Assembly: GCA_963281155.1 (NCBI GenBank)
Contig: CAUJLY010000001.1
Coordinates: 3,038,001-3,102,000, forward strand
DNA length: 64,000 nt
Direction: 5' to 3'
From: Rhabditophanes sp. KR3021
Taxonomy: Eukaryota; Nematoda; Chromadorea; Rhabditida; Alloionematidae
Below, piece after piece: positions 10,502 through 57,104 of the stretch (position 1 is the first letter of the stretch; the number at the start of each line of letters is the position of its first letter). Under the pieces are notes generated by a model that saw nothing but the letters and a program-made list of their open reading frames with translations, did not search any database and had not been told where the DNA came from. The position numbers and the translations under genes are program-made.

Positions 10502-10524
10502 GGCTGGTAAAAACCGACTAAGAC

Positions 10525-10617
10525 GGTTTAAAAAACCCAGTTTGAGGTTAGTATGCGTTCAGGATTCTATATGAATTCTGTTACCAAATTTTGGAATGAG
10601 ATTTGAAAAGATCTCTA
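10525..10617 (+). ncRNA. Spliced-leader RNA gene B (SL1-like)
   Basis: The 22-nt leader starts GGTTTAAAAAACCC and ends AGTTTGAG at 10546, followed by donor GTTAGT. The Sm site AATTTTGG is at 10587-10594 and the 3' stem GAGAT/ATCTC spans 10598-10615. Its layout is identical to gene A, 244 bp upstream. Donor, Sm site and terminal hairpin are all intact, so it is expected to be functional. It forms the left edge of the 1.1-kb duplication. Confidence 0.87.
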
Positions 10618-11600: not shown

Positions 11601-11615
11601 ATGTACTTCATTTAA

Positions 11616-12832: not shown

Positions 12833-13912
12833 TTAAATTATTTGAGTTGGTATAGTATGAACTTCTTTTTTTGTTGTTTTAGTTTGTTTAATTGTCTTTT
12901 CAAAATAAGGTTTCAAGAATTTTGGGCAAAAATCTTTGTAAATATGATTATGAATTGTTTTGTTGAAGAAATATAAACTAATTGCTCCACTACAATGTGT
13001 CATTATCCATCCAATCTGTCCAAGTACGATAATATATTTTCCAATGTTAATAAAATTCATAATAATATAAGTAAATGCGGCGATTAAGGACATACTAAAT
13101 TATGAAATTAGAGATATTATTACTTATAATTTGTGAAACACTTACCTACAAATCAGTGTTGATTGAATTAATAAACTTTTTTGAGATTTTGATATTGTAA
13201 AAGTTGTTTGCTTATTTTTAAATTTGTAAAATATCATCATGATAAAAACTGTGTAAAGACCTATCAAACCAATGATTAAAACAAAATTATTTATAGAATG
13301 TGCCTCATTAATATAATCGGACTCTACCGTGGTATGTCCTTTTGTAATTAAATGAAATGGATTGAAGAACCATGCCCATGAATTTTTTGATGAATATATT
13401 ATCGGAGGTGTAAAAAGACACATTAATAAACCATACACAAATGCCATCATTAACCATACTACAGTTTTATTTCTTTCAAATAAATATTTAGCCCACTGTT
13501 TATTATAAACGTCCAGACAGCGGTTGAATGCAAGTACCAAATAAATAATGTTGCTTGAATACCATCCAAAATCGCCGAAAAATCCCGAAATATATATTAA
13601 CTTGGGATTTGAACAATATACGGCTCCAATAATTGTAAGATATCCTGTTACTACAGCACACACTGATAAAGCTAAGCAGTCAATGTAAGAAATATATAAC
13701 ATAATCTTTAGGCAAGATTTGTTGGAATATTCTTTTTTTGATAATATTCTTATTATTGGAATATTTAAAATTATGAAAGTTATGCCCAAAGAAGCATAAA
13801 CAATTCCAAGAATCAGATTAGGTTCTCCTTCAGCTTGCCATTCTTCTAAACTCAGTCCATCACATGAATATTTTTCATTCAGAAGGCTTGGTGAGAAATT
13901 AATTTGAAACAT
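12833..13912 (-). CDS. SRT-like 7TM chemoreceptor
   Basis: Two exons on the minus strand, 13912-13146 and 13094-12833, joined by a 51-bp GTAAGT...TTTAG intron, give 342 aa. The N-terminus has YSCDGLSLEEWQAEGEPNLI and continues through ISYIDCLAL, GAVYCSNPKLIYISG and LVLAFNRCLDV, which are characteristic blocks of nematode serpentine receptor class T. Exon 2 carries the last helix and an FNKTI-like motif before a Lys-rich tail. The frame is open throughout, in contrast to its neighbour pseudogene at 11616-12196. It is probably a sensory-neuron chemoreceptor, known for the family only in general. Confidence 0.85.
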
Positions 13913-14638
13913 GATTTTAAATTTAATGTTTAGTCTTTGCAGTTAAATAAATTATTTTATTTTGACCGGATAATAAGTTTGTTTATTTAATTTAGAATCA
14001 CAATATAGTTAACTTAAAACTATAATTTCCGCGAAAACATTAAAGAAGCTTGCATATTTATTAATAATTATGAGTTAGGTAAAATTATGATGATGATAGG
14101 CTGAAATTAATTAAATAAAATGAGTTTATTTTATAATATATACCTTTTTTGCTCAAACTTCCTCGTAAATATTAATTAGAGTTCTTTTAAAATTAGGTCA
14201 AAATAACATATTATTGTTATTAAAATGTCGTGTAATTGAACTTTTATTCTAATAACCTAAATGTATGCTTGTTTTTTATATTTAAAATTAAATCAAATGT
14301 TTTTAAAGTATGGATGACTTTTAAGAATAAAACAAGATTCAATTTGTATTAAAGTAAAGTACATAAATGGTATTTTTAATTTGTATGCCTGCTCGATTGA
14401 TATATTTCTTTCACAATTAATAAGAATATTTAATAAAGTGAAGTGCAAAATTTTGGGACATTATTATTTTTGCCCATAACTTAAAATATAATGATTCAAC
14501 TGAGACATGTTTAGTGTCAAAAGATGCACCTTAAAATGTACTATAATAAAGGCTTTTAAAGTATTGACTTATTTAAATGTAGGACATATAATTAACGAAA
14601 GTTTATTTCTACATGGTGCAAAATTTTGGGACATTTTT
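13913..14638. other. Intergenic, no supported gene
   Basis: AT-rich spacer between the SRT gene promoter and the transposase-like pseudogene. No open frame, RNA gene or repeat beyond homopolymer runs was seen. Confidence 0.5.
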
Positions 14639-16260
14639 TTATTTACTACGTAAACAAGTTTTCCGGAAAACTTTTGCCCCAGTACTTTTGAGATTCAATT
14701 CGAACATTTCCAATTTCGTTAAATCAACTTCCATATTAACATCTCCGTGTTTACTATCTAAATCGCCGTTTTCAATTTCATCACCTTCTGAATCTACATC
14801 AGAATCTTCCCTATGTTGTTTTTCTTCAGTTTCTTCATTTTCACTATCTTCAACATCATCTTCATTTTCTTCACCATTATCTTCATCACATTCATCAGTT
14901 GAGTCCATTAAATCTTTATCAAGGTTTTTAAGGTATTCTTCGATCTTGTCATACGTACTTTCAAATATGCCCATTAGTATATGAAGAAAGGGAAAATGTA
15001 TAAGTTCAGATTTGATTTTGAAAATTGGTGGTTTATCTAATAAATACTTTCTTAAAGGAAATTTTATCGCTGCATCTATTCGGCTAATACCTTCTCTGAA
15101 ATATCTCCATTTCTTTCCCTTTCTACGAACCTTTGTTTTGGAAATGCATTTAATGCAAGGGAAGGAACAATTAGGACCTTTGTGTCCAATAACAGCGCAC
15201 AAAAATGTATAATCACCAGTCAGATGTAGGCTAATTGGATAGAATTTGTTGGGACTTAGCTCAATCATGGTAAAACTTTCGAGTTGTTTGGCAATATCTT
15301 TGTAACAATGACTCATGTTAAGGTACGTGTCTGAACCATACATAAGTGAGATCAAAGTTATATTATTTATGCCATTGGTAAGTTTCTTGTCATTCACACA
15401 TTTGATTAAAATCCCAAGTTTTGTAGTTGTCGAGCCTTTGTCTCCAACTAAGCAAATTTTAACCCCATCATTTACCAAACCCAAAGCGTTATTTTCAACA
15501 ATTTATTTATTCTGTCAGACAATATTTCTTGAATATTTTCAACTTCAGCATGAGGTATGAAATTGATTGTTTCACCATCAGCATTTTTTATTGCTACCGA
15601 TGAATAACTAACTCTCCCTTTTTGGATTCCTTTTTTGAACAAATTTACCTTTCTTACATCGGGTAATATATAAAATCCCAATCCTTTCAATATTTTTTTG
15701 ATTAAGCGGTAGTTGTGAAAAAATAGGCTTAATTGAATCCAGAAAAGGGCTGCTTCTTCAATAGTTAACTTTATAGAATGGTCGTCAGTTAGTCGTTTGC
15801 ATAAATCATCGACAAGTTGGTTTTTATTCTCAACACCACCATTTATTTTTTGAATGAAGTCAATAACTAAGGCTTGTCGTTTGTACTGACCACTAAGATA
15901 AAGTTCTTTATAACAAGTTAGCTCACGTTTTTTGGCAATGCCTTTAAAGTAATCTTCAAGTTTTTGTTTACTGTTGTTAGTTTACTTTCAAGCAAACGAT
16001 TTAATGAATCTTTTTTCCTTTTGAGCTTTGTATCATCCTAAAAAATAATAAATAATATTTATGAACATACTTCACGAAGAGATTTAAATTTGTCCAAATT
16101 AATCTTCAGACTAATGATCTCATTCTCCAACTCTAATATTCTTTGCTCAAAGGTTAATTTTTATTTTATTTGGTCTTTAACAGTATTTTCTAATTTGATC
16201 TTTGACAATATTTTCTAATTGGTCAACTTGTTCTCTTAATAATAATTTTTCCGATTTTCA
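14639..16260 (-). pseudogene. Coiled-coil/DDE transposase-like pseudogene
   Basis: Minus-strand coding fragments follow each other in three frames. Around 16260-16065 there is a coiled coil (QRILELENEIISLKINL) ending at a GTATGT donor, with the matching TTTTTTAG acceptor near 16036. 15965-15490 encodes a globular part (GFYILPDVRKVNLFKKG). 15484-14639 carries VGDKGSTTTKLGI and LTGDYTFL...GHKGPNCSFPCIKC, then a long Asp/Glu-rich tail. The two GD motifs and the PC..C block resemble a family of DDE-type transposase-like proteins scattered in invertebrate genomes, distantly recalling RAG1/Transib/Chapaev types; that assignment is from memory. Frameshifts near 15490 and 15965, and stops near 16180, show it is broken. 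Confidence 0.6.
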
Positions 16261-16270
16261 CATTAGAATG

Positions 16271-16277
16271 TATAAGA
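16271..16277 (+). promoter_or_regulatory. TATA-like element of SL RNA gene C
   Basis: TATAAGA at -30 relative to the leader; genes A and B have TATAAAA in the same place. Confidence 0.45.
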
Positions 16278-16300
16278 GGTTGGCTAAAACTGACTAAGAC

Positions 16301-16393
16301 GGTTTAAAAAACCCAGTTTGAGGCTAGTATGCGTTCAGGATTCTATAAGGATTCTGTTAGCAAATTTTGGAATGAGATTTGAAAAGATCTCTA
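16301..16393 (+). ncRNA. Spliced-leader RNA gene C, GC donor
   Basis: The leader (16301-16322) is identical to that of gene B, the Sm site AATTTTGG is at 16363-16370 and the 3' stem GAGAT/ATCTC at 16374-16391 is intact. The base after the leader is different: the donor reads GCTAGT where A and B have GTTAGT. A GC donor is rare and usually weaker, so this copy may be inefficient or silent in trans-splicing. Otherwise it is as complete as the others. Confidence 0.82.
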
Positions 16394-16970
16394 AAAAATA
16401 AAACTTTACAGGATAATATCTTAGATTCACATTTGTGGTTATTCTCATTTATTCATTTAGATGTATCTTTTATAGTGAAAATGCTTATCATTAAATTTGT
16501 GTATTAACTTTAAAATTTACAATAATCACATTTAAACAAAAGTATCCACACCATTAAAATGACAAGATAATACAAGTTTTGGTATCATAGTGAAATGGTA
16601 TTGTGGAGAATCAAAGTTTAACATAATTACGCATGAATATACAAATTCTTGAAAATAAGTAAATATTTCACAATCTATCAAGTTATTTAATAGTTTTAAG
16701 ATTTTATTAAAGCTACTTAGAATAGTTATATCTTCAAAATAATATTGTAGAAAAAGTATTGTTTAAGAATAAATAATTGTCAAGTTGTTTTAATAGTTAC
16801 GCTATTTGTAAATTTTTCATCAAAACCAATTATTTTAAACTACCTGTATTCAATATGTACGAGTAAGTGTCAAAATATTTTAATGAGTTGTCTGTAAATT
16901 TGTATAAATACTATTACTTCCAATAAAGAATTTTACTGTAAAGAAAATAAGAGCCCAATTTTCGATATTA

Positions 16971-18086
16971 ATGAAAATGCCGAATTTGGATTTGTTCTGT
17001 TATTTATTTGAATGCTATGATGATTTAACATTACACTTAACTGACATATCAACTTTCGGAACTATTCTATTTAATTTATGTGTGATATTTGCTTTATTAT
17101 GCTATGTTAAAGATCCAACGAAGGGATATATTAAGTTTCTGTTATTTACTAGAATATACATTATATTCTTTGCTATTTTAATGGGTATAATTGTCAGACC
17201 AAGAATATATTTTGATTTATTCGCCTGTACTTGTACAGGATTTATTAAAACGTTTGAATCATTTGGATGTTCCTTGGGGGCTGTAAGTCGTAATAGATCT
17301 ATTTTGTAAAAGTAACTCTGTTTTTATACATTTATTTCGATGGCTTTGTATATGAATATGTTTTTTCTTAATTGTGATTTACATATTCGTAAAAATGGTT
17401 TTTTGAACAAAAGTAGTTTACTTTATTTAAGTTATAAACAGATATGTCTCTATTGTTCATCCATAATTTTTGGAGTCATTGCACTCTTTGGACTATTCAA
17501 ATCAAACCTAACCCGTGAAGACTTGTTAAAAGTGGTTCATAATGCAACACACATTTTTGTTTTGGATAAATCAGATAGATCATTTATAGGCTATAATCTT
17601 AATTTAATTATTGGAAAATTTGTTATAATTTTATGTTCAGTAGTGATCATTATAATGTTTCTAATATATTGCGAAGGATATTTTACATTAAATCAACATT
17701 TTAAAGAAAGATTAGATAAAATTAATAATCTTAAAACCAAACAAAAATATGTTCACGTTTTACGATACTACAATTTACAAGCAATTGGTTCAACATTATT
17801 TTTTAAAGTTCCAACATTTGTTGCTATATTAATAACATACTTTTTTAAGGATCAACCATCTTTCAAATTCTGGTTTTATTTCGCCAACAATATACCATTT
17901 ATTTCAATGTCAGTACTAAATTATAATTCTTTTGTTGTTTTGTGGTATTATTTGCAAATTCAACATTCTAAGCAAGTGGCAATCATCCCTGTTTTAACTG
18001 TTAATAAAAATGCAATAAGACAATCTACAACGAAATGTTTTGACGAAACTATTCATAATATTTTTATTAAATACCTTTTAAAATAA
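16971..18086 (+). pseudogene. 7TM chemoreceptor, junction broken
   Basis: The first part (16971-17282) encodes about 104 residues with two or three hydrophobic helices; a GTAAGT donor follows GCT at 17282. The second part is open from about 17316 to 18086 and encodes the remaining helices (ICLYCSSIIFGVIALFGLF, NLIIGKFVIILCSVVIIIMF, and a last pair ending LWYYLQIQHSKQ). The only AG acceptor in range that enters this frame, at 17311-17312, is followed at once by an in-frame TAA. The other copy has TTTTCTTAG at the place where this copy has TTTTCTTAA. Either the acceptor was lost or I have missed the true splice. The receptor class is unassigned. Confidence 0.6.
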
Positions 18087-23667: not shown

Positions 23668-24167
23668 NNNNNNNNNNNNNNNNNNNNNNNNNNNNNNNNN
23701 NNNNNNNNNNNNNNNNNNNNNNNNNNNNNNNNNNNNNNNNNNNNNNNNNNNNNNNNNNNNNNNNNNNNNNNNNNNNNNNNNNNNNNNNNNNNNNNNNNNN
23801 NNNNNNNNNNNNNNNNNNNNNNNNNNNNNNNNNNNNNNNNNNNNNNNNNNNNNNNNNNNNNNNNNNNNNNNNNNNNNNNNNNNNNNNNNNNNNNNNNNNN
23901 NNNNNNNNNNNNNNNNNNNNNNNNNNNNNNNNNNNNNNNNNNNNNNNNNNNNNNNNNNNNNNNNNNNNNNNNNNNNNNNNNNNNNNNNNNNNNNNNNNNN
24001 NNNNNNNNNNNNNNNNNNNNNNNNNNNNNNNNNNNNNNNNNNNNNNNNNNNNNNNNNNNNNNNNNNNNNNNNNNNNNNNNNNNNNNNNNNNNNNNNNNNN
24101 NNNNNNNNNNNNNNNNNNNNNNNNNNNNNNNNNNNNNNNNNNNNNNNNNNNNNNNNNNNNNNNNNNN
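23668..24167. other. Assembly gap, 500 N
   Basis: Exactly 500 N, the same length as the gap at 41869-42368, so this is a placeholder for an unknown distance. Nuclear sequence is on the left and mitochondrial sequence on the right. Confidence 0.99.
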
Positions 24168-24391
24168 CTTTTTTGCTTTTGTTAAATAATTATGTTTCTG
24201 TATTAACTAAATTAAATAAATTTAATGTTTTTATTTTTGGTTTAGTAAGAATTTTATTAAGATGATTAGGTCAATGTCATGTAGAAGATCCTTATGTGTT
24301 TTTTAAGAATTTTATTTTCTTTTTTATATTTTTATTTTGCTTCTTTTATTTATTATTTACTCATTTTTTTACTTTCCATTTATTTAAATAA
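24168..24391 (+). pseudogene. cob: cob 3' fragment, copy 1 (contig edge)
   Basis: This is the last ~75 codons of cytochrome b, starting at the gap edge. Compared with the complete copy at 32588-33691 it contains several single-base insertions (for example GTTAAATAAT for GTAAATAAT, one extra T in GTGTTTTTT, and extra bases in CTTCTTTTATTTATT). These break the frame. The pattern fits unpolished contig-end sequence. Confidence 0.9.
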
Positions 24392-24447
24392 TGAATTTAG
24401 TATAAAAATATACATTAGATTTAGATTCTAAAGATAAAAGATTCATT
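24390..24447 (+). tRNA. trnL1: trnL(UAG), copy 1
   Basis: Acceptor AATGAAT/ATTCATT, anticodon stem TTAGA/TCTAA with loop TTTAGAT, anticodon TAG. It is identical to the copy at 33690-33747. Confidence 0.9.
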
Positions 24448-25221
24448 ATATTTCATAATTTTCATATTTTAAGTTTATCTAGTTATCCTTTTTTAATCTT
24501 TTTTAACAGCTAGAGGTTTAACAACTTCTTTAGTAGTATTTTTTAAATATGGTTTAGTTTTCTAGAGTATTTTTTTGTTTATATTGCTACTATTTTTGTA
24601 AGATTTGCTTGATCTAAAGATATTACTATAGAAGGTTGTATCTGGTTATCATAATTTCTTTGTTATAGATGGTTTTAAATTTGGTACTGTTTTATTTATT
24701 TTTAGAGAGTTTATATTTTTTTTTAGAATCTTTTGAACATTTTTTGATGCTGCTTTAGTTTCCAGTTTCATGATCTAGGTGAAACTTGATCTCCTATAGG
24801 TTTAGAATTAGTTAATCCTTTTGGAGTTCCTTTACTAAATACTGTTATTTTATTAAGAAGTGGTGTTTCTGTTACTTGAGCTCATTATAGACTTTTAAGT
24901 AATAAAAATTGTACTCTAAGAATAGTAATTACTATTGTTTTAGCTGCAATCTTTACAGCAGTTCAAGGTATAGAATATGCACAAGCAAGATTTTCTATTG
25001 CTGATGGTGTATTTGGGAGAATTTTTTATTTAGCTACAGGATTTCATGGTGTTCATGTTTTATTTGGTGGTTTATTTTTATTTTTTAATTTAATTCGTTT
25101 AGTTAAAAATCATTTTACTTTTAATCATCATCTAGGTTTAGAGTTTGCTATTTTATATTGACATTTTGTTGATGTAGTTTGATTATTTTTATTTGTTTTT
25201 GTTTATTGATGAAGATATTAG
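24448..25221 (+). pseudogene. cox3: cox3, copy 1, with insertion errors
   Basis: The same gene as 33748-34515 but 6 bp longer. Single-base insertions lie in the first half (TTTTTAACAG for TTTTACAG, GTTTTCTAG for GTTTCTAG, TTTATATTGC for TTTATTTGC, GGTTGTATC for GGTTTATC, GTTTCCAGTTTCATG for GTTCCAGTTCATG). From about 24790 on it is identical to copy 2. Read literally it is frameshifted, but the intact copy 300 codons away in the same molecule shows this is end-of-contig error. Confidence 0.88.
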
Positions 25222-25279
25222 CTATTTTAGTTTAATTTTAGAATATGTAACTTGTAATTACAAGGTTAATTGTAGCTAT
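25219..25279 (+). tRNA. trnT: trnT(UGU), copy 1
   Basis: Acceptor TAGCTAT/GTAGCTA and anticodon stem TGTAA/TTACA around CTTGTAA (anticodon TGT). It overlaps the cox3 stop by 3 bases, as in copy 2. Confidence 0.88.
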
Positions 25280-25280
25280 T

Positions 25281-26508
25281 ATAGAATTTTTTATCTTATT
25301 TTCTTTTTCTCTTTTAAATCCTTTTATATTTTTTATCTTTTTATTTTTATTTTCTTTTTGAAGATTAAATGTATTCAGATGACAAGGACTATTTTTTATT
25401 TTAGATTCTTATAACTTTGTTATTTTAATTTTTATAAGAATTTTTATTTTTGGATTAATTTATTTAAGAGAGAAAAATACTAATTTATTACGTTTGACAC
25501 AAATTTTGATTTTTATTTGTGTAATATTTTTTATTCCAAGAAATATTATTAGTTTATATATTTTTTTTGAACTTTCTATATTTCCTATTTTAATTATATT
25601 ATTAGGTTATGGTTCTCAGATTGAAAAAATTAATTCTAGTTATTATTTATTATTTTATGCAGCTTTTTGTTCTTTTCCATTTTTGTTTGTTTATTTAAAT
25701 CTTGATTTTTCTTTTTTAATGGTTTATTTTGATTGTGTTTTATCTTGAGAATTAACATTTATTTTAACATTAGCATTTATAATAAAATTTCCAGTTTATT
25801 TTTTACATCTTTGATTACCTAAAGCTCATGTTGAAGCACCTACTACAGCTAGAATATTATTGGCTGGTTTATTATTGAAATTAGGAACTGCAGGATTTTT
25901 ACGTATTTTAAAAAGCATTAGTTTATGTCATATTAATATATGATTATTTATTGCTTTTATTGGTATAATTTTAGCAGCTTTTAGTTGTATTTTTCAAAGA
26001 GATGCTAAAGCTTTAGCAGCTTATTCTTCTATTACACATATAAGATTTTTATTATTTTCTCTTTTGTTTATTAATTTAACAGGTAAAACTAGAAGATTAA
26101 TTATAATAGTTGCTCATGGTTATACTTCTACTTTAATATTCTATTTTATTGGAGAATTTTATCATATTAGATCTTCGCGTATATTATATTTTTTAAATAG
26201 TTTTATAAATTCTAGGATTTTAATAAGGACATTTTTTGCTCTTGCATTTCTTTCTAATAGAGGAGTACCTCCTTCATTATCTTTTGTAGCTGAATTTATA
26301 ACTATTAGAAGAGGTAGAATTTTATTACCTTTAAGATTCTATTTAATCTTTATTTATTTTTTTGTAGCTTTTTATTATTCTCTTTATATTATTGTAATAT
26401 CTTTTTATAGGAAAATCTTTTATTAATTTTAATAACTGAAATGTAGGTATTAGCTTTCCTTTAATTTTTATATGTTTTAATCTATTTTGATTTAATATTT
26501 TTTATTAA
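25281..26508 (+). pseudogene. nad4: nad4, copy 1, one-base insertion
   Basis: Identical to nad4 at 34575-35801 except for one extra T near 26402 (ATCTTTTTATAGG for ATCTTTTATAGG), which shifts the last ~35 codons. It is very probably a base-call error in a T run, since the same gene is open in copy 2. Confidence 0.88.
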
Positions 26509-26550
26509 AAGTAATTAACTTTAAGAGTTTAAATTTTTTTAAATTGCTTT

Positions 26551-28125
<1,575 letters not shown>

Positions 28126-28130
28126 TAAAA

Positions 28131-28188
28131 AAGTCTTTTAGTATAATTTAGTACATTTAATTGCAGATTAAAGAGTTTAAAGGACTTA
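28131..28188 (+). tRNA. trnC: trnC(GCA), copy 1
   Basis: Acceptor AAGTCTT/AGGACTT (one G-U), anticodon stem TTTAA/TTAAA around TTGCAGA with anticodon GCA; T arm replaced by a short loop, as in nematode mitochondria. Confidence 0.92.
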
Positions 28189-28242
28189 AGTGTAAAATAG
28201 ATTTTCTATATTCAATTACGGTTTGAAGAGATTCCACACTTT
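28188..28242 (+). tRNA. trnR: trnR(ACG), copy 1
   Basis: Acceptor AAGTGT/ACACTT and anticodon stem TTCAA/TTGAA around TTACGGT, anticodon ACG, the usual nematode tRNA-Arg. It abuts trnC with a one-base overlap. Confidence 0.9.
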
Positions 28243-28244
28243 AA

Positions 28245-28300
28245 TTACAATTTAGTTTAAATAGAATTTTTGTTTTTGGTACAAAAGGTTTAATTGTAAA
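28245..28300 (+). tRNA. trnQ: trnQ(UUG), copy 1
   Basis: Acceptor TTACAAT/ATTGTAA (7 bp, perfect) and anticodon stem TTTGT/ACAAA around TTTTGGT, anticodon TTG. Confidence 0.88.
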
Positions 28301-29892
28301 TTAATAATTATGTATTTTTAGTTTTCTTAGGTTTTATATTTAGAATTTTAATAGTTTTTTGTTTTCCATTTTTTAAATTATCTTTGTTTTTTTTAGATTG
28401 AGAATTTTTATCTTTTAAATTTAATTTTTTCTTTAACAGAGTATTATTTTCTTTTATTTTAATATTAGTAACTATAAGTGTTTTAGTTTATAGTTGTTAT
28501 TATTTAAATGGAGAAGCAAATTTTTATTATTATTTTTTTGTATTATTAGTTTTTGTAGGAAGAATATTTTCTTTAATTTTTAGAAATGGTGTTTTTTCTA
28601 TATTGGTAAGATGAGATATATTAGGAATTTCTAGATTTTTTTTAGTCTTATTTTATAATAATTGAGATAGATGTAGAGGTTCTATAAATACAGTTCTTAC
28701 TAATCGTTTAGGTGATTTTTTTATATTTATTTTTTTTGCTTTAAGATTTTTTAGAGGATTCTATTTTATTAGATTTTCTTTTGTAGCTATTACTCCTGCT
28801 TTATTTTTAATTTTAACAGCATTTACTAAAAGTGCTCAATTTCCTTTTAGAGGTTGATTACCTAAAGCTATAAGAGCTCCAACTCCAGTAAGTTCTTTAG
28901 TCCATAGAAGTACTTTGGTTACAGCAGGTTTAATTTTATTAATAAATTTTAACGCCTTAATATTTTCTAAAAACATTATAAGAATAGTTTTAGTAGTAGG
29001 AATCTTTACTATATTTTTTTCTAGGATTACAGCTTTGTTTGAAGAAGATTTAAAAAAAGTAGTAGCTTTAAGAACACTTTCTCAAATAGGATTTTCTATA
29101 GTAACTTTAGGTTTAGGACTTAATTTTATTGCTCTAATTCATTTATTAAGCCATGCATTATTTAAAAGATGTTTATTTATACAAGTAGGTTATTTAATTC
29201 ATTGTTCTTTTGGTCAACAAGATGGACGTAATTATAATAATTTAGGTAATTTACCTTTTTTTATTCAAATTCAAATATTAGTAACTTTATTTTGTTTATG
29301 TGGATTAATATTCTCAAGAGGTGCTGTAAGAAAAGATTTTATTTTAGAGATATTTTTTTCTAATAATTTTATAGTATTTTTTTCTTCAATATTTTTTATA
29401 GCAGTATTTATAACTTTTGGTTATAGTTATCGTTTATGAAAAAGATTATTTTCAACTTTTAATAAAAGTATAGATCATTTTAGTAATAGAGTTCTAATAA
29501 ATTATCTTAGATTATTTTTAGTTATTTTTTCTATCTCCTTTATTTGATGAATTAATACTAATTTATTATTTTTACCTTCTTTATTTTTATATTTAGATTT
29601 TTATGCTCCTTTAATATTTTTATTCTTATCATTTTTTATTATTTTAATTTCTGTAAAGTTTATTTTAAAGGAAGTTAGTTTTAAATTTTTAGGAGATTAT
29701 TTACCTAAATTATCTATTTATTTCTTAATTAATATAAAAAGAACTGATTTATTTTTGAATAAATTAAATTTATGAGGATTTTCTTTTTTTAGTAGTCTAA
29801 GTTTTTTAAGTAATAGATTTATAAAAAATTTACATTTTAATAGTATTACCTTTTTAATCTTTTTATTATTTTTAATATTTTATATAGTTTAG
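28300..29892 (+). CDS. nad5: NADH dehydrogenase subunit 5, copy 1
   Basis: 530 aa from an ATT start to TAG, using TGA as Trp and AGA as Ser. NAD5 is one of the proton-pumping membrane subunits of complex I. Visible family blocks are SWDMLGISSFFLVLFYNNWDS, LTNRLGDFFMF, LTAFTKSAQFPFSGWLPKAM and APTPVSSLVHSSTLVTAG, the conserved antiporter-like core with its Lys. The start is taken as the first in-frame ATT after trnQ, overlapping its discriminator base; the stop overlaps trnK by 11 bases. Length is normal for nematodes (about 527). An in-frame section is visible in the standard code only where TGA is absent. Confidence 0.95.
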
Positions 29893-29939
29893 TCTATAAA
29901 GGACAATTAATTTTTTTAATTAAATATAATTACTATATT
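29882..29939 (+). tRNA. trnK: trnK(UUU), copy 1
   Basis: Acceptor ATATAGT/ACTATAT (perfect), D-stem GTC/GAC, anticodon stem TTAAT/ATTAA around TTTTTTA, anticodon TTT. It overlaps the end of nad5 by 11 bases. Confidence 0.85.
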
Positions 29940-30023
29940 GATTTTTATTCTCGTTTTAGCTATAATAAATAATTGTGTGCTATAGAGTGTAAAATCTGGC
30001 AATAGCCTAACAAAAAGTCAAGC

Positions 30024-30062
30024 CCTTCTCTTTTTGGTTTCTTTCAGGGTGACAGCACACTG
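30024..30062 (+). repeat. Inverted repeat, left arm
   Basis: Starts CCTTCTCTTTTTGGTTTCT and ends GACAGCACACTG. It is the reverse complement of 32367-32405 with 37 of 39 positions matching. The last 18 bases nearly form their own hairpin. The arms enclose 2.3 kb of AT-rich non-coding DNA. Confidence 0.9.
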
Positions 30063-30507
30063 AAGAGAAAGCTGGAGTATTTTTAAAACTAAAATATTTA
30101 ATATCTTTATTTTATAATTATCTAATTTATATAAAAAATATATTTAATAAAATATTTTAATATTAGTTTAACTTTAGCTTACAAAATGAGGGACTATATT
30201 AAACTTAATCGCAGGGTACTATGTAAATACAATAACACAACATAATCCACCGCTGTCAAAAAAACTTCAAAATTATATTAATGTAGTATTAAAATATATG
30301 ATTATGACAAAAGGGCTTTCGTAAAACTCTTAAAAATAATTATATTTTTTTTAATTAATTTAGCAAAAAGAATATGATATGATCTCTGGGCTTTTTTAAA
30401 ATCTTTAAAAATATTTTATATTTTTTTTGTTTAAATATTATTGAATAAGTTAAAGTTGTACTTAATTTTATATCAATATTTAAAAACTATTGTTTTTCTA
30501 GATTTTA

Positions 30508-30568
30508 GGACGAGTTGTAGCCCCCTACCTACAAGTCATACTTTTTTATGTAGATTTTTAGACTATAA
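30508..30568 (+). repeat. Hairpin direct repeat, unit 1
   Basis: About 60 nt, almost identical to 32062-32122, containing TTGTAG-CCCCCTAC-CTACAA, a 6-bp hairpin with a C-rich loop in otherwise extremely AT-rich DNA. It resembles the GC-rich hairpin elements that spread in some fungal and algal mitochondria. Confidence 0.85.
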
Positions 30569-30689
30569 AAAAGAGGCTTATTTTTTAGATATTTTACTAT
30601 ATTTTTTAGAATACTTCTATGTATGATTTTATTATAACTTATTAATTTTCAAGTGTAATTATTACTCTCGTGCGCACGCGCGTTTTATT

Positions 30690-30738
<49 letters not shown>

Positions 30739-30960
30739 TACGTATATATATATATATATATATAATATATATTAATATATATAATATAAATATATATATA
30801 TATATATATTTATATTATAATATAATATATTAACATAGTTAATATATTATTATATATATATATATATACTACGTATATATATATATATATATACTATATA
30901 ATATATTAACATAGTTAATATATTATTTTATATATTTACATAATATATTAACATAGTTAA
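30690..30960. repeat. TA array with palindromes
   Basis: Long runs of (TA)n broken by TACTACGTATA, and then three copies of a TAATATATTAACATAGTTAA unit that folds TTAAC/GTTAA. The neighbouring GCGCACGCGCG run differs between the two circle copies (ACACACAC at 39965). Confidence 0.85.
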
Positions 30961-31881
30961 TATATTATTTCATATATAAAAAAGAATGTTTATATTTATA
31001 TATTATACATTTTATGTATAATATATAATATAATAACACAAACTAAATATAAATATCTTAAGATATTTATAGCTACTTATTATCAATTTATATTTATATT
31101 ATATATAAAGCTTATTAATAATAATATAGAAGAACATATAATATTATAATTTTATTATAATATTATATTAATTATAGTTACAATATTAAAAAGTCTTATA
31201 ATATGTTCTTTTCTACATTAGTAGAGAAAAGGACAAATATTATAATAGACTGTTAATACAGTAAAGAAACTCTCAAAGATCTTAAGTGCTTTCTTTAGAA
31301 AGCAATCACAAACTAAGACACAATTTTAAAGAAAATAAGAAAATATTAAAAATGTTTAATATTCTACTTATCATATTCTACTTTTATTTAAATAAAACTT
31401 ACTATAAAAAAAGTAAAAAAAATCAATACACCCACAACAAAACCTTCAAAAAAAAAGTCTTAAATTATAAGTACAGGGTGGTGGTGTATATATATCTATG
31501 TAAATCTTATTAATATTCTACTTTCTATAATACTTTCCTTTTATATTAAACCTAGAGGTTTATAATATTATTTGTTAAATATTTATAATAGTATTAACTT
31601 TAGTTAATACCTTTTAAACATATTAACAATAGTTAATATGTATATAAATAATATATTATTTTATAATATATTATTATAATTATTAAAAATTATTATTATT
31701 ATTAATAACTATAAATTATTATCTTTTTCTTTTATTCTTCTTTTATAAATTAATCTTTTAAGATAGTTAATTGTTAATTAACCATAAAATTTATAACTTT
31801 CTTTTTATTGTATTAATTTTCTATTTTAATAAAGTTTTGTTAAACTTTTGTTGCATATTTCATTGGGCCTTCCTATTTGAA

Positions 31882-31912
31882 ATTTTATTAAACGGATTTT
31901 GTTTAATAAAAT
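31882..31912. promoter_or_regulatory. 12-bp perfect hairpin
   Basis: ATTTTATTAAAC and GTTTAATAAAAT pair perfectly over 12 bp around the loop GGATTTT, near a small GC patch (TTGGGCCTTCC). A stem like this with a T-rich loop is what a light-strand origin looks like in other animals; here it is only a candidate. Confidence 0.4.
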
Positions 31913-32061
31913 ATGTTTCATTAAAATAATTACTTCGTCTTATTTTAAGATATTAGTTTTTTAATCTAATATATTTTTCTTAAAATTTATAAAATTATTA
32001 AATTTTTAAAAAGTGTTGTATCTTTTTATTCTAAATTATTATAAAAAGTTATATATTTTAG

Positions 32062-32122
32062 TACGAGTTGTAGCCCCCTACCTACAAGTCATACTTTTTT
32101 ATGTAGATTTTTAGACTATAAA
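32062..32122 (+). repeat. Hairpin direct repeat, unit 2
   Basis: Second copy of the 60-nt element at 30508-30568, differing at its first bases (GTACGAG for GGACGAG) and after the poly-A end. Confidence 0.85.
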
Positions 32123-32366
32123 AAATAGACCTTTTTTTACTATTATTTTTAATATTTTTTTTTAATATTTTTATATTTTTTAATGTTTTTATAAATCTTA
32201 TATAAGTTTTATATTTAATTTTTTTATATTTTATAATATTTTGTAGATCAATAAATTTATGTTATAAGTTTTATAAAATAGTTACTTTGTAACTAGCTTT
32301 GGTATTCTAGCAGTATAAAGATTTATTAGTTTTTTACTATTTATTTGAAGTCTGCCGGTTTATTAT

Positions 32367-32405
32367 CAGTGTGCTGTCACACTGATAGAAACCAAAAAGA
32401 GAAGG
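32367..32405 (+). repeat. Inverted repeat, right arm
   Basis: Reverse complement of 30024-30062. It begins with CAGTGTG-CTGT-CACACTG, a perfect 7-bp hairpin with a 4-nt loop. It lies 125 bp upstream of trnD. Confidence 0.9.
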
Positions 32406-32530
32406 ATTTAAGTGTAGGATCAACTCTCTCCTCTTGACGGTCGCGAATATAGAAATATTTAAGTTATAGTATTTAGGAATTCCGGGTCTACCTCTTTCCA
32501 AATAAGTTTTATTCTTTTTTTATTATTATT

Positions 32531-32587
32531 AAAGTTATAATATAAATTAGTATATTTCATTGTCAATGAAAAGGTTCTTTAACTTTA
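32531..32587 (+). tRNA. trnD: trnD(GUC)
   Basis: Acceptor AAAGTTA/TAACTTT (perfect 7 bp), anticodon stem TTTCA/TGAAA around TTGTCAA, anticodon GTC. It ends directly before the cob start codon. In most nematode mitochondria trnD lies in the cox1-cox2 interval, so its place before cob is a rearrangement. Confidence 0.92.
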
Positions 32588-33691
32588 ATTTCTGGTTTAT
32601 TAAATTTTGTTAAAGGTTTATTAATTACTTTACCTTCTAGTAAAACTCTTACTTTAAGATGAAATTTTGGTAGAATATTAGGTATAGTTTTAGTTTTTCA
32701 GTTAATTACTGGAACTTTTTTAGCTATGTATTATACTGCTGATAGTTTATCTGCTTTTAGTAGTGTTCAATATATTATATATGAAGTAAATTATGGATGA
32801 ATCTTTCGTATCTTCCATTTTAATGGAGCAAGATTATTTTTTATTTTTCTTTATTTACATTTCTTTAAAGGATTATTTTTTAGTAGTTATCGTTTGAAAG
32901 CAGTTTGAGTCTCTGGTTTAACTATATTTTTATTAGTAATAATAGAAGCTTTTATAGGCTATGTATTAGTTTGAGCTCAAATAAGATTTTGAGCTTCAGT
33001 AGTAATTACTAGTTTATTAAGAGTTATTCCAATTTGAGGTCCTATATTAGTTACTTGAATTTGAAGTGGATTCTCAGTAGGAGGTGCTACTTTAAAATTC
33101 TTTTTTGTTATTCATTTTTTAGTACCTTGAGGTATTTTAGTTGTTATATTAGCTCATTTAATTTTTTTACATGATACTGGTAGAACTTCTAAATTATATT
33201 GTCATGGAGATTATGATAAAGTTTGTTTTTATCCTTTATATTTTGCAAAGGATTCTTATAATTTGTTATTTTGATTAATTTTTGTTGTAGTAGCTTTATT
33301 ATTTCCCTTTTCTTTAGGTGATGCTGAAATATTTATTGAAGCAGATCCTATAATAAGACCTGTTCATATTGTACCTGAATGATATTTTTTATTTGCTTAT
33401 GCTATTCTTCGTGCTATTCCTAATAAAATTTTAGGTGTAGTTGCTTTATTAGCAAGTATTGTAATCTTTTACTTTTTTGCTTTTGTAAATAATTATGTTT
33501 CTGTATTAACTAAATTAAATAAATTTAATGTTTTTATTTTTGGTTTAGTAAGAATTTTATTAAGATGATTAGGTCAATGTCATGTAGAAGATCCTTATGT
33601 GTTTTTAAGAATTTTATTTTCTTTTTTATATTTTTATTTTGCTTCTTTATTATTATTTACTCATTTTTTTACTTTCCATTTATTTAAATAA
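32588..33691 (+). CDS. cob: Cytochrome b
   Basis: 367 aa from ATT (next base after trnD) to TAA in the invertebrate mitochondrial code. It is the haem-bearing membrane subunit of complex III. Recognisable parts are [16 protein letters not shown] at the start, [20 protein letters not shown] (two haem-ligand His), [19 protein letters not shown], a late [23 protein letters not shown] (the PEWY Qo-site motif) and a C-terminal [15 protein letters not shown]. Its length is normal. This is the only complete copy in the window: the contig both starts and ends inside or next to this gene. Confidence 0.96.
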
Positions 33692-33747
33692 TGAATTTAG
33701 TATAAAAATATACATTAGATTTAGATTCTAAAGATAAAAGATTCATT
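33690..33747 (+). tRNA. trnL1: trnL(UAG)
   Basis: Acceptor AATGAAT/ATTCATT and anticodon stem TTAGA/TCTAA around TTTAGAT, anticodon TAG (CUN codons). It overlaps the cob stop by two bases. The order cob-trnL1-cox3 is standard in chromadorean nematodes. Confidence 0.92.
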
Positions 33748-34515
33748 ATATTTCATAATTTTCATATTTTAAGTTTATCTAGTTATCCTTTTTTAATCTT
33801 TTTTACAGCTAGAGGTTTAACAACTTCTTTAGTAGTATTTTTTAAATATGGTTTAGTTTCTAGAGTATTTTTTTGTTTATTTGCTACTATTTTTGTAAGA
33901 TTTGCTTGATCTAAAGATATTACTATAGAAGGTTTATCTGGTTATCATAATTTCTTTGTTATAGATGGTTTTAAATTTGGTACTGTTTTATTTATTTTTA
34001 GAGAGTTTATATTTTTTTTTAGAATCTTTTGAACATTTTTTGATGCTGCTTTAGTTCCAGTTCATGATCTAGGTGAAACTTGATCTCCTATAGGTTTAGA
34101 ATTAGTTAATCCTTTTGGAGTTCCTTTACTAAATACTGTTATTTTATTAAGAAGTGGTGTTTCTGTTACTTGAGCTCATTATAGACTTTTAAGTAATAAA
34201 AATTGTACTCTAAGAATAGTAATTACTATTGTTTTAGCTGCAATCTTTACAGCAGTTCAAGGTATAGAATATGCACAAGCAAGATTTTCTATTGCTGATG
34301 GTGTATTTGGGAGAATTTTTTATTTAGCTACAGGATTTCATGGTGTTCATGTTTTATTTGGTGGTTTATTTTTATTTTTTAATTTAATTCGTTTAGTTAA
34401 AAATCATTTTACTTTTAATCATCATCTAGGTTTAGAGTTTGCTATTTTATATTGACATTTTGTTGATGTAGTTTGATTATTTTTATTTGTTTTTGTTTAT
34501 TGATGAAGATATTAG
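33748..34515 (+). CDS. cox3: Cytochrome c oxidase subunit III
   Basis: 255 aa from ATA to TAG, the usual nematode length. It is a structural inner-membrane subunit of complex IV. The N-terminus MFHNFHILSLSSYPF, the central FGVPLLNTVILLSSGVSVTW and the C-terminal HHLGLEFAILYWHFVDVVWL are typical. Tryptophans are TGA. The frame is fully open here, unlike the insertion-laden copy at 24448. The stop overlaps trnT. Confidence 0.95.
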
Positions 34516-34573
34516 CTATTTTAGTTTAATTTTAGAATATGTAACTTGTAATTACAAGGTTAATTGTAGCTAT
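34513..34573 (+). tRNA. trnT: trnT(UGU)
   Basis: TAGCTAT/GTAGCTA acceptor and stem TGTAA/TTACA around CTTGTAA; anticodon TGT. The cox3-trnT-nad4 order is conserved in nematodes. Confidence 0.9.
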
Positions 34574-34574
34574 T

Positions 34575-35801
34575 ATAGAATTTTTTATCTTATTTTCTTT
34601 TTCTCTTTTAAATCCTTTTATATTTTTTATCTTTTTATTTTTATTTTCTTTTTGAAGATTAAATGTATTCAGATGACAAGGACTATTTTTTATTTTAGAT
34701 TCTTATAACTTTGTTATTTTAATTTTTATAAGAATTTTTATTTTTGGATTAATTTATTTAAGAGAGAAAAATACTAATTTATTACGTTTGACACAAATTT
34801 TGATTTTTATTTGTGTAATATTTTTTATTCCAAGAAATATTATTAGTTTATATATTTTTTTTGAACTTTCTATATTTCCTATTTTAATTATATTATTAGG
34901 TTATGGTTCTCAGATTGAAAAAATTAATTCTAGTTATTATTTATTATTTTATGCAGCTTTTTGTTCTTTTCCATTTTTGTTTGTTTATTTAAATCTTGAT
35001 TTTTCTTTTTTAATGGTTTATTTTGATTGTGTTTTATCTTGAGAATTAACATTTATTTTAACATTAGCATTTATAATAAAATTTCCAGTTTATTTTTTAC
35101 ATCTTTGATTACCTAAAGCTCATGTTGAAGCACCTACTACAGCTAGAATATTATTGGCTGGTTTATTATTGAAATTAGGAACTGCAGGATTTTTACGTAT
35201 TTTAAAAAGCATTAGTTTATGTCATATTAATATATGATTATTTATTGCTTTTATTGGTATAATTTTAGCAGCTTTTAGTTGTATTTTTCAAAGAGATGCT
35301 AAAGCTTTAGCAGCTTATTCTTCTATTACACATATAAGATTTTTATTATTTTCTCTTTTGTTTATTAATTTAACAGGTAAAACTAGAAGATTAATTATAA
35401 TAGTTGCTCATGGTTATACTTCTACTTTAATATTCTATTTTATTGGAGAATTTTATCATATTAGATCTTCGCGTATATTATATTTTTTAAATAGTTTTAT
35501 AAATTCTAGGATTTTAATAAGGACATTTTTTGCTCTTGCATTTCTTTCTAATAGAGGAGTACCTCCTTCATTATCTTTTGTAGCTGAATTTATAACTATT
35601 AGAAGAGGTAGAATTTTATTACCTTTAAGATTCTATTTAATCTTTATTTATTTTTTTGTAGCTTTTTATTATTCTCTTTATATTATTGTAATATCTTTTA
35701 TAGGAAAATCTTTTATTAATTTTAATAACTGAAATGTAGGTATTAGCTTTCCTTTAATTTTTATATGTTTTAATCTATTTTGATTTAATATTTTTTATTA
35801 A
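34575..35801 (+). CDS. nad4: NADH dehydrogenase subunit 4
   Basis: 408 aa from ATA to TAA. NAD4 is a proton-pumping membrane subunit of complex I. Family landmarks are [18 protein letters not shown] (the conserved Glu in the pumping half-channel), [28 protein letters not shown] (antiporter Lys) and [19 protein letters not shown]. Only pieces of it appear open in the standard code because Trp is TGA. The start is the first ATA after trnT; an ATT three bases earlier is also possible. Confidence 0.95.
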
Positions 35802-35843
35802 AAGTAATTAACTTTAAGAGTTTAAATTTTTTTAAATTGCTTT

Positions 35844-37418
<1,575 letters not shown>

Positions 37419-37423
37419 TAAAA

Positions 37424-37481
37424 AAGTCTTTTAGTATAATTTAGTACATTTAATTGCAGATTAAAGAGTTTAAAGGACTTA
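37424..37481 (+). tRNA. trnC: trnC(GCA), copy 2
   Basis: Same sequence as 28131-28188. Confidence 0.9.
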
Positions 37482-37535
37482 AGTGTAAAATAGATTTTCT
37501 ATATTCAATTACGGTTTGAAGAGATTCCACACTTT
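37481..37535 (+). tRNA. trnR: trnR(ACG), copy 2
   Basis: Same sequence as 28188-28242. Confidence 0.88.
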
Positions 37536-37537
37536 AA

Positions 37538-37593
37538 TTACAATTTAGTTTAAATAGAATTTTTGTTTTTGGTACAAAAGGTTTAATTGTAAA
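37538..37593 (+). tRNA. trnQ: trnQ(UUG), copy 2
   Basis: Same sequence as 28245-28300. Confidence 0.86.
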
Positions 37594-39185
37594 TTAATAA
37601 TTATGTATTTTTAGTTTTCTTAGGTTTTATATTTAGAATTTTAATAGTTTTTTGTTTTCCATTTTTTAAATTATCTTTGTTTTTTTTAGATTGAGAATTT
37701 TTATCTTTTAAATTTAATTTTTTCTTTAACAGAGTATTATTTTCTTTTATTTTAATATTAGTAACTATAAGTGTTTTAGTTTATAGTTGTTATTATTTAA
37801 ATGGAGAAGCAAATTTTTATTATTATTTTTTTGTATTATTAGTTTTTGTAGGAAGAATATTTTCTTTAATTTTTAGAAATGGTGTTTTTTCTATATTGGT
37901 AAGATGAGATATATTAGGAATTTCTAGATTTTTTTTAGTCTTATTTTATAATAATTGAGATAGATGTAGAGGTTCTATAAATACAGTTCTTACTAATCGT
38001 TTAGGTGATTTTTTTATATTTATTTTTTTTGCTTTAAGATTTTTTAGAGGATTCTATTTTATTAGATTTTCTTTTGTAGCTATTACTCCTGCTTTATTTT
38101 TAATTTTAACAGCATTTACTAAAAGTGCTCAATTTCCTTTTAGAGGTTGATTACCTAAAGCTATAAGAGCTCCAACTCCAGTAAGTTCTTTAGTCCATAG
38201 AAGTACTTTGGTTACAGCAGGTTTAATTTTATTAATAAATTTTAACGCCTTAATATTTTCTAAAAACATTATAAGAATAGTTTTAGTAGTAGGAATCTTT
38301 ACTATATTTTTTTCTAGGATTACAGCTTTGTTTGAAGAAGATTTAAAAAAAGTAGTAGCTTTAAGAACACTTTCTCAAATAGGATTTTCTATAGTAACTT
38401 TAGGTTTAGGACTTAATTTTATTGCTCTAATTCATTTATTAAGCCATGCATTATTTAAAAGATGTTTATTTATACAAGTAGGTTATTTAATTCATTGTTC
38501 TTTTGGTCAACAAGATGGACGTAATTATAATAATTTAGGTAATTTACCTTTTTTTATTCAAATTCAAATATTAGTAACTTTATTTTGTTTATGTGGATTA
38601 ATATTCTCAAGAGGTGCTGTAAGAAAAGATTTTATTTTAGAGATATTTTTTTCTAATAATTTTATAGTATTTTTTTCTTCAATATTTTTTATAGCAGTAT
38701 TTATAACTTTTGGTTATAGTTATCGTTTATGAAAAAGATTATTTTCAACTTTTAATAAAAGTATAGATCATTTTAGTAATAGAGTTCTAATAAATTATCT
38801 TAGATTATTTTTAGTTATTTTTTCTATCTCCTTTATTTGATGAATTAATACTAATTTATTATTTTTACCTTCTTTATTTTTATATTTAGATTTTTATGCT
38901 CCTTTAATATTTTTATTCTTATCATTTTTTATTATTTTAATTTCTGTAAAGTTTATTTTAAAGGAAGTTAGTTTTAAATTTTTAGGAGATTATTTACCTA
39001 AATTATCTATTTATTTCTTAATTAATATAAAAAGAACTGATTTATTTTTGAATAAATTAAATTTATGAGGATTTTCTTTTTTTAGTAGTCTAAGTTTTTT
39101 AAGTAATAGATTTATAAAAAATTTACATTTTAATAGTATTACCTTTTTAATCTTTTTATTATTTTTAATATTTTATATAGTTTAG
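37593..39185 (+). CDS. nad5: NADH dehydrogenase subunit 5, copy 2
   Basis: Same 530-aa frame as 28300-29892, second passage round the circle. Confidence 0.94.
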
Positions 39186-39232
39186 TCTATAAAGGACAAT
39201 TAATTTTTTTAATTAAATATAATTACTATATT
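39175..39232 (+). tRNA. trnK: trnK(UUU), copy 2
   Basis: Same sequence as 29882-29939. Confidence 0.84.
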
Positions 39233-39982
39233 GATTTTTATTCTCGTTTTAGCTATAATAAATAATTGTGTGCTATAGAGTGTAAAATCTGGCAATAGCC
39301 TAACAAAAAGTCAAGCCCTTCTCTTTTTGGTTTCTTTCAGGGTGACAGCACACTGAAGAGAAAGCTGGAGTATTTTTAAAACTAAAATATTTAATATCTT
39401 TATTTTATAATTATCTAATTTATATAAAAAATATATTTAATAAAATATTTTAATATTAGTTTAACTTTAGCTTACAAAATGAGGGACTATATTAAACTTA
39501 ATCGCAGGGTACTATGTAAATACAATAACACAACATAATCCACCGCTGTCAAAAAAACTTCAAAATTATATTAATGTAGTATTAAAATATATGATTATGA
39601 CAAAAGGGCTTTCGTAAAACTCTTAAAAATAATTATATTTTTTTTAATTAATTTAGCAAAAAGAATATGATATGATCTCTGGGCTTTTTTAAAATCTTTA
39701 AAAATATTTTATATTTTTTTTGTTTAAATATTATTGAATAAGTTAAAGTTGTACTTAATTTTATATCAATATTTAAAAACTATTGTTTTTCTAGATTTTA
39801 GGACGAGTTGTAGCCCCCTACCTACAAGTCATACTTTTTTATGTAGATTTTTAGACTATAAAAAAGAGGCTTATTTTTTAGATATTTTACTATATTTTTT
39901 AGAATACTTCTATGTATGATTTTATTATAACTTATTAATTTTCAAGTGTAATTATTACTCTCGTGCACACACACGTTTTATT

Positions 39983-40033
<51 letters not shown>

Positions 40034-41840
40034 TACGTATATATATATATATATATATAATATATATTAATATATATAATATAAATATATATATATATAT
40101 ATATTTATATTATAATATAATATATTAACATAGTTAATATATTATTATATATATATATATATACTACGTATATATATATATATATATACTATATAATATA
40201 TTAACATAGTTAATATATTATTTTATATATTTACATAATATATTAACATAGTTAATATATTATTTCATATATAAAAAAGAATGTTTATATTTATATATTA
40301 TACATTTTATGTATAATATATAATATAATAACACAAACTAAATATAAATATCTTAAGATATTTATAGCTACTTATTATCAATTTATATTTATATTATATA
40401 TAAAGCTTATTAATAATAATATAGAAGAACATATAATATTATAATTTTATTATAATATTATATTAATTATAGTTACAATATTAAAAAGTCTTATAATATG
40501 TTCTTTTCTACATTAGTAGAGAAAAGGACAAATATTATAATAGACTGTTAATACAGTAAAGAAACTCTCAAAGATCTTAAGTGCTTTCTTTAGAAAGCAA
40601 TCACAAACTAAGACACAATTTTAAAGAAAATAAGAAAATATTAAAAATGTTTAATATTCTACTTATCATATTCTACTTTTATTTAAATAAAACTTACTAT
40701 AAAAAAAGTAAAAAAAATCAATACACCCACAACAAAACCTTCAAAAAAAAAAGTCTTAAATTATAAGTACAGGGTGGTGGTGTATATATATCTATGTAAA
40801 TCTTATTAATATTCTACTTTCTATAATACTTTCCTTTTATATTAAACCTAGAGGTTTATAATATTATTTGTTAAATATTTATAATAGTATTAACTTTAGT
40901 TAATACCTTTTAAACATATTAACAATAGTTAATATGTATATAAATAATATATTATTTTATAATATATTATTATAATTATTAAAAATTATTATTATTATTA
41001 ATAACTATAAATTATTATCTTTTTCTTTTATTCTTCTTTTATAAATTAATCTTTTAAGATAGTTAATTGTTAATTAACCATAAAATTTATAACTTTCTTT
41101 TTATTGTATTAATTTTCTATTTTAATAAAGTTTTGTTAAACTTTTGTTGCATATTTCATTGGGCCTTCCTATTTGAAATTTTATTAAACGGATTTTGTTT
41201 AATAAAATATGTTTCATTAAAATAATTACTTCGTCTTATTTTAAGATATTAGTTTTTTAATCTAATATATTTTTCTTAAAATTTATAAAATTATTAAATT
41301 TTTAAAAAGTGTTGTATCTTTTTATTCTAAATTATTATAAAAAGTTATATATTTTCTAGTACGAGTTGTAGCCCCTACCTACAAGTCATACTTTTTTATG
41401 TAGATTTTTAGAGCTACTATAAAAAATAGACCTTTTTTTACTATTATTTTTTAATATTTTTTTTTAATATTTTTATATTTTTTAATGTTTTTATAAATCT
41501 TATATAAGTTTTATATTTAATTTTTTTATATTTTATAATATTTTGTAGATCAATAAATTTATGTTATAAGTTTTATAAAATAGTTACTTTGTTAACTAGC
41601 TTTGGTATTCTAGCAGTATAAAAGATTTATTAGTTTTTTTACTATTTATTTGAAGTGTGCCGGTTTATTATTATTCAGTGTGCTGTCACACTGATAGAAA
41701 CCAAAAAGAGAAGGATTTAAGTGTAGGATCAACTCTCTCCTCTTGACGGTCGCGAATATCAGAAATATTTAAGTTATAGTATTTAGGAATTCCGGGTCTA
41801 CCTCTTTCCAAATAAGTTTTATTCTTTTTTTATTATTATT
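39233..41840. other. Mitochondrial non-coding region, copy 2
   Basis: Second reading of 29940-32530. Up to about 41350 differences are few: three G-to-A changes in the alternating CG/CA run at 39965-39975, a 2-bp length change before 40581 and one extra A near 40750. From 41350 to the gap, insertions accumulate (about ten in 500 bp, including 4 bp in TTATTATTATTCAG). The right inverted-repeat arm lies at 41676-41714. Confidence 0.85.
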
Positions 41841-41868
41841 AAAGTTATAATATAAATTAGTATATTTC
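41841..41868 (+). tRNA. trnD: trnD fragment at contig edge
   Basis: First 28 bases of trnD (AAAGTTATAA...TATATTTC), cut off by the gap at 41869. Confidence 0.85.
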
Positions 41869-42368
41869 NNNNNNNNNNNNNNNNNNNNNNNNNNNNNNNN
41901 NNNNNNNNNNNNNNNNNNNNNNNNNNNNNNNNNNNNNNNNNNNNNNNNNNNNNNNNNNNNNNNNNNNNNNNNNNNNNNNNNNNNNNNNNNNNNNNNNNNN
42001 NNNNNNNNNNNNNNNNNNNNNNNNNNNNNNNNNNNNNNNNNNNNNNNNNNNNNNNNNNNNNNNNNNNNNNNNNNNNNNNNNNNNNNNNNNNNNNNNNNNN
42101 NNNNNNNNNNNNNNNNNNNNNNNNNNNNNNNNNNNNNNNNNNNNNNNNNNNNNNNNNNNNNNNNNNNNNNNNNNNNNNNNNNNNNNNNNNNNNNNNNNNN
42201 NNNNNNNNNNNNNNNNNNNNNNNNNNNNNNNNNNNNNNNNNNNNNNNNNNNNNNNNNNNNNNNNNNNNNNNNNNNNNNNNNNNNNNNNNNNNNNNNNNNN
42301 NNNNNNNNNNNNNNNNNNNNNNNNNNNNNNNNNNNNNNNNNNNNNNNNNNNNNNNNNNNNNNNNNNNN
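41869..42368. other. Assembly gap, 500 N
   Basis: Exactly 500 N. Mitochondrial sequence is on the left; nuclear sequence resumes on the right. Confidence 0.99.
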
Positions 42369-57031: not shown

Positions 57032-57104
57032 GCCTCCCTAGCTCAATTGGTAGAGCGTTAGACTTTTAATCTAACGGTCGCGGGTTCGAGCCCCGCGGGG
57101 GGCT
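57032..57104 (+). tRNA. tRNA-Lys(UUU), nuclear
   Basis: A complete cloverleaf: acceptor GCCTCCC/GGGGGGC (one T-G), D-arm AGCTCAATTGGTAGAGC, anticodon stem TTAGA/TCTAA with loop CTTTTAA (anticodon TTT), T-arm GCGGG-TTCGAGC-CCCGC. Both internal promoter boxes are intact (TAGCTCAATTGG and GGTTCGAGCCC). No intron. GC content is far above the surroundings, as expected. Confidence 0.98.

Follow-up and report, generated by a model that had tools for sequence, protein, structure and literature searches.

The mitochondrial genome of the nematode Rhabditophanes sp. KR3021 is described in PMC5945635, which refers to Hunt et al. 2016, as two circular chromosomes of 9.3 and 9.2 kb. According to that description, the longest non-coding sequence is 2.6 kb on each circle, and the duplicated region is identical. 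A second account, also drawn from Hunt et al. 2016, mentions two circles with a highly conserved gene order (PMC5011991). PMC5945635 counts KR3021 as an animal parasite, whereas R. diutinus appears as free-living in PMC10676810, a discrepancy that matters for the proposal tying parasitism to split mitochondrial genomes. Two-circle genomes are also described in the nematodes Ruizia karukerae and Globodera ellingtonae. The v.2 assembly of R. diutinus KR3021 has 44.8 Mb in six scaffolds with 32.16% G+C (PMC10676810, Table 1), and was made from Nanopore reads with NextDenovo and Pilon, followed by 3D-DNA without misjoin correction. In the main text of that paper, the string ‘mitochondri’ occurs nowhere.

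The window analyzed here is a 64,000-nucleotide stretch of one scaffold. Our reading, to which we assign a probability of roughly 0.96, is that its central part is the 9.3-kb circle of the bipartite R. diutinus KR3021 mitochondrial genome, present as a 17.7-kb wrap-around contig mis-scaffolded into a nuclear chromosome scaffold. The two-circle mitochondrial genome itself is already known, as it has been in print since 2016 and again since 2018, and the sequence-only reading was right to recall a two-circle report for Rhabditophanes (PMC5945635, PMC5011991). Only the placement of the circle in the v.2 nuclear scaffold, with the second circle not found, and a trnN-like candidate appear to be new. 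As biology, the result adds little beyond agreement with the published genome and is ordinary for the species.

A wrap-around contig between two gaps

The window consists of three pieces, split by two exact gaps of 500 N:

23668..24167, no strand: exact run of 500 N, gap to the left of the mitochondrial contig
24168..41868, plus strand: mitochondrial contig, about 1.9 head-to-tail turns of the 9.3-kb circle
41869..42368, no strand: exact run of 500 N, gap to the right of the mitochondrial contig

G+C content is 20.8% in the middle piece and 28.7% and 30.0% in the outer pieces. The coding parts of the middle piece show a steady negative AT skew and a positive GC skew, and the flanks differ. When the contig is aligned with itself, positions 24168-32558 match positions 33472-41868 with 99.6% identity over 8.4 kb, and the offset between turns, measured at six points, is 9293-9309; the repeat unit is 9293-9310 bp. 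A self-overlap of this length and identity indicates a closed circle of 9.3 kb, as the sequence-only reading had proposed.

Aligned with each other, the turns disagree at 38 of 8409 columns, of which 30 are gap columns. The differences concentrate towards the ends of the contig: 14 columns fall within its first 600 nt, 17 within its last 515 nt and only 7 elsewhere. Both cox1 and nad5 are identical in the two turns. The first-turn copies of cox3, nad4 and the contained part of cob carry frame-shifting insertions relative to the second turn, in which all five protein frames are open. Because the differences cluster at the ends and cox1 and nad5 are identical between turns, the pattern is better explained by poor correction of the contig ends than by an ageing nuclear copy.

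Two sites of divergence were detected in the interior of the contig. The first, at 30674-30680 and far from the contig ends, consists of three G/A differences between turns within a short purine-pyrimidine sequence; the second, also away from the ends, is a TA indel of 2 nt at 30700. These differences may reflect heteroplasmy or an assembly error.

No junction between mitochondrial and nuclear DNA is present in the sequence, and both sides of the contig are 500-N gaps, of the kind written by 3D-DNA. With such a gap on either side of it in a nuclear scaffold, the contig most plausibly owes its position to an error of scaffolding: in an assembly scaffolded with 3D-DNA, a wrap-around contig would have been placed there by mistake. 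The v.2 assembly appears to hold a two-turn mitochondrial contig in one of its nuclear scaffolds and to be without the second circle, a combination that could mislead work on nuclear copies of mitochondrial DNA (numts), copy number and gene annotation.

The nuclear flanks have features of their own. A 1.1-kb direct repeat with 95% identity is found at 10473-11601 and 16249-17394, and a further repeat (80%) at 11590-12263 and 13287-13979. The right-hand piece contains a nuclear-type tRNA-Lys(TTT) gene at 57032-57104.

Genes carried by the circle

The turn that runs from 32530 to 41839 contains, in this order, trnD, cob, trnL1, cox3, trnT, nad4, cox1, trnC, trnR, trnQ, nad5, trnK and a non-coding region. 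The five protein genes and the seven tRNA genes are all on the plus strand, and the protein frames are open under code 5, the invertebrate mitochondrial code:

32530..32588, plus strand: trnD (ARAGORN)
32546..33691, plus strand: cob open frame, stop to stop (Pfam PF00033, 6.9e-71; PF00032, 6.8e-25)
33690..33748, plus strand: trnL1(UAG) (ARAGORN)
33706..34515, plus strand: cox3 open frame, stop to stop (Pfam PF00510, 8e-102)
34514..34572, plus strand: trnT (ARAGORN)
34545..35801, plus strand: probable nad4 open frame, stop to stop (Pfam PF00361, Proton_antipo_M, 3e-40)
35826..37418, plus strand: cox1 open frame (Pfam PF00115, 2.5e-136)
37424..37481, plus strand: trnC (ARAGORN, 3' end trimmed by eye)
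37481..37535, plus strand: trnR(ACG) (ARAGORN)
37538..37593, plus strand: trnQ (ARAGORN)
37593..39185, plus strand: probable nad5 open frame (Pfam PF00361, 3.4e-42)
39175..39232, plus strand: trnK (ARAGORN)

The order cob-L1-cox3-T-nad4-cox1-C is the ordinary one in nematodes, and the closest named database proteins of COX1, after those of the window itself, are from nematodes. The open frame of cob overlaps trnD, so the true start of the gene probably lies downstream of 32546; in cox3, the first in-frame ATN codon is found at 33745. Two frames match the Proton_antipo_M profile. Position after trnT and length point to nad4 rather than nad2 for the first, and length suggests nad5 for the second.

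The seven accepted tRNAs (D, L1(UAG), T, C, R, Q and K) sit at gene borders. Further ARAGORN predictions fall within nad4, within cob (minus strand, some modes only), across trnK, in the TA tract described below (one Met among them) and elsewhere in the non-coding region. The sequence-only reading had placed the feature at 32531..39232, which is correct to one base, the span from the start of trnD to the end of trnK being 32530-39232. It had also stated that the circle holds these five protein genes and seven tRNAs only; Pfam and ARAGORN bear out the genes, and the one candidate that it did not list is a trnN-like element.

A non-coding region with a trnN-like candidate

Between trnK and trnD, a single non-coding region of 2.6 kb was found, which may hold trnN. 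Its main features, together with the candidate, are as follows:

29940..32529, no strand: non-coding region, first turn, 2590 bp, 82% A+T, between trnK and trnD
39233..41839, no strand: non-coding region, second turn; contig-end differences in the final ~500 nt
30024..30077, plus strand: left arm of an imperfect 54-nt inverted repeat, 85% complementary to 32352-32405
32352..32405, minus strand: right arm of the inverted repeat, pairing with 30024-30077
30671..31200, no strand: (TA)n-rich tract with tandem repeats, 91% A+T
31744..31797 (second turn 41040-41091), plus strand: trnN(GUU)-like element, candidate (ARAGORN, fold and shuffles, custom scan)

The arms of the inverted repeat lie near both ends of the region and probably correspond to the ‘39-nt repeat’ mentioned in the sequence-only reading. 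A 112-nt direct repeat (87%) is also present at 30496-30607 and 32049-32160. The longest open frame listed in the region has 88 aa, and Pfam detected nothing at its cut-off in 5 of the small open frames. Two Rfam matches, both below gathering scores, were a tRNA over trnT and mir-568 in the TA tract.

The trnN-like element is predicted to fold with acceptor stem, D arm and anticodon arm but without a T arm, and it is as well formed as the accepted tRNAs. In a custom tRNA scan it shares the best score, 34, with trnL1; among 40 block-shuffled sequences of 1.33 kb, scanned on one strand, none attained that score and one attained 33. The scan is, however, no clean detector, since it recovers five of the seven accepted tRNAs (T and K are missed) and yields four matches, with scores of 28-32, in or beside the TA tract. 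ARAGORN, for its part, predicted one or more tRNAs in 21 of 60 sequences obtained by dinucleotide shuffling of the region that contains the element. Because tRNAs arise that often in shuffled sequence, the element stays a candidate only. The KR3021 gene clusters given in PMC7229770 include trnN+trnF; beside the trnN-like element, neither ARAGORN nor the custom scan predicted a trnF. Possible readings of the element are an eighth tRNA gene on the circle, a relic and a product of chance.

The 2.6-kb region is the most likely site of the replication and transcription start of each circle; its copies would be kept identical by recombination or gene conversion between them. A more speculative proposal, which we consider rather doubtful, is that the shared region, bounded by the 54-nt inverted repeats, is not purely non-coding but carries a working trnN(GUU), and that this tRNA-bearing module anchors replication or recombination of both chromosomes. 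If that were true, each circle would bring its own trnN. The trnN-like element and the inverted repeats of the shared region make a small, testable lead.

The second circle, rival readings and known systems

The searches for the rest of the gene set covered the 44,845,725 bases of the assembly, in six contigs; assembly-wide searches score the best candidates only. Profile searches of the six scaffolds with HMMs for COX2, NAD1, NAD3 and ATP6 gave no match. The PF00361 profile matched nad4 and nad5 in both turns and nothing else, and therefore no nad2 was found. Profile searches with COX1, COX3, NAD4 and NAD5 gave matches in the mitochondrial contig only. As method controls, the COX1 and COX3 HMMs and a Strongyloides COX1 protein (74% identity) all recovered that contig. 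A COX2 of Rhabditophanes sp. KR3021 exists in public records; used as a protein query, with no same-query control, it had no match in the six scaffolds. For ribosomal RNAs, Rfam gave no match at E values up to 1, and none of six rRNA motifs surpassed the best of 50 shuffles, both without a nematode positive control. The non-coding region, used as a query against the six scaffolds, found no further copy outside the mitochondrial contig, and its only match there was a stretch of 99 bp with 73% identity in scaffold C6. Beyond this assembly, the contigs of other genomes that KR3021 COX2 matched bore bacterial titles in all of the best 80 of 454 relatives, with identities of 34-49%, and were set aside; among viral contigs COX1 gave 6 pattern matches and no relative.

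The circle thus carries a partial gene set: five protein genes were found on it, and the HMMs for COX2, NAD1, ATP6 and NAD3 were silent. Among the genes that the sequence-only reading had declared missing, the absence of cox2, nad1, nad2, nad3 and atp6 is upheld by HMMs, while that of nad4L, nad6 and the rRNAs was weakly tested, by open-frame length, Rfam and motifs. The second circle for which that reading suggested a search did not turn up: the six scaffolds yielded none of cox2, nad1, nad3 and atp6 and no extra copy of the non-coding region, and the second circle is therefore not directly observed. The genes missing here should, judging from print, sit on the published 9.2-kb circle.

Two other explanations deserve consideration. 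One is that the contig is a tandem nuclear copy of mitochondrial DNA at a chromosomal site, as its location within a nuclear scaffold and the frame-shifting insertions in the first-turn cob, cox3 and nad4 might suggest. Yet the gaps on both sides leave no junction to nuclear DNA, cox1 and nad5 do not differ between turns, the second turn keeps its five frames open, and of the 38 differing columns, 31 are no more than about 600 nt from a contig end. Furthermore, the searches of the assembly gave no full copy elsewhere, and the coding parts have just two other matches there, of 84 and 49 bp. We regard a nuclear copy as highly improbable. As for the two short matches, one lies at C4:1153361-1153444 (93% to 35732-35815, which covers the nad4 3' end with the following spacer) and the other at C4:5169014-5169062 (88% to nad5, 38218-38266); they are probably numts.

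The other explanation takes the 9.3-kb unit for a mis-assembled part of one ordinary mitochondrial genome. That the remaining gene set was not found in the assembly is compatible with this view, and for the same reason the assembly does not by itself show the two-circle structure. Against it, the contig covers the 9.3-kb unit nearly twice, and from trnK through the non-coding region to trnD no gene was found except the trnN-like candidate. In addition, the same strain has been reported with circles of 9.3 and 9.2 kb (PMC5945635; two circles also in PMC5011991). A mis-assembled single genome seems to us just as improbable as a nuclear copy, and both explanations were rejected on the evidence set against each. 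The interpretation of the circle as one chromosome of a multipartite mitochondrial genome, put forward from the sequence alone, is supported, as it fits the size of 9.3 kb, the 2.6-kb non-coding region and the trnT+nad4 pair given in print.

The comparison with known systems can be summarized as follows. Globodera ellingtonae is likewise a nematode with two circles that have a non-coding sequence in common (PMC5011991). Its circles are larger than the circle found here (17.8 and 14.4 kb), with shared pseudogenes and with long spacers between almost every gene. Ruizia karukerae, also a nematode, has two circles of similar size (7,659 and 7,647 bp) with a common stretch (PMC5945635). Unlike the region described here, that stretch is 1,010 bp long and contains cox2 and three tRNAs, and its circles lack an abnormally long non-coding region. 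The closest match is the published KR3021 genome itself. Of the KR3021 clusters listed in PMC7229770, trnT+nad4 is present on the circle as an adjacency, and the other five were not found there by ARAGORN and Pfam. Compared by printed dimensions and clusters, the two show no difference; compared by printed descriptions, they share the 9.3-kb circle, the 2.6-kb non-coding region and the trnT+nad4 adjacency.
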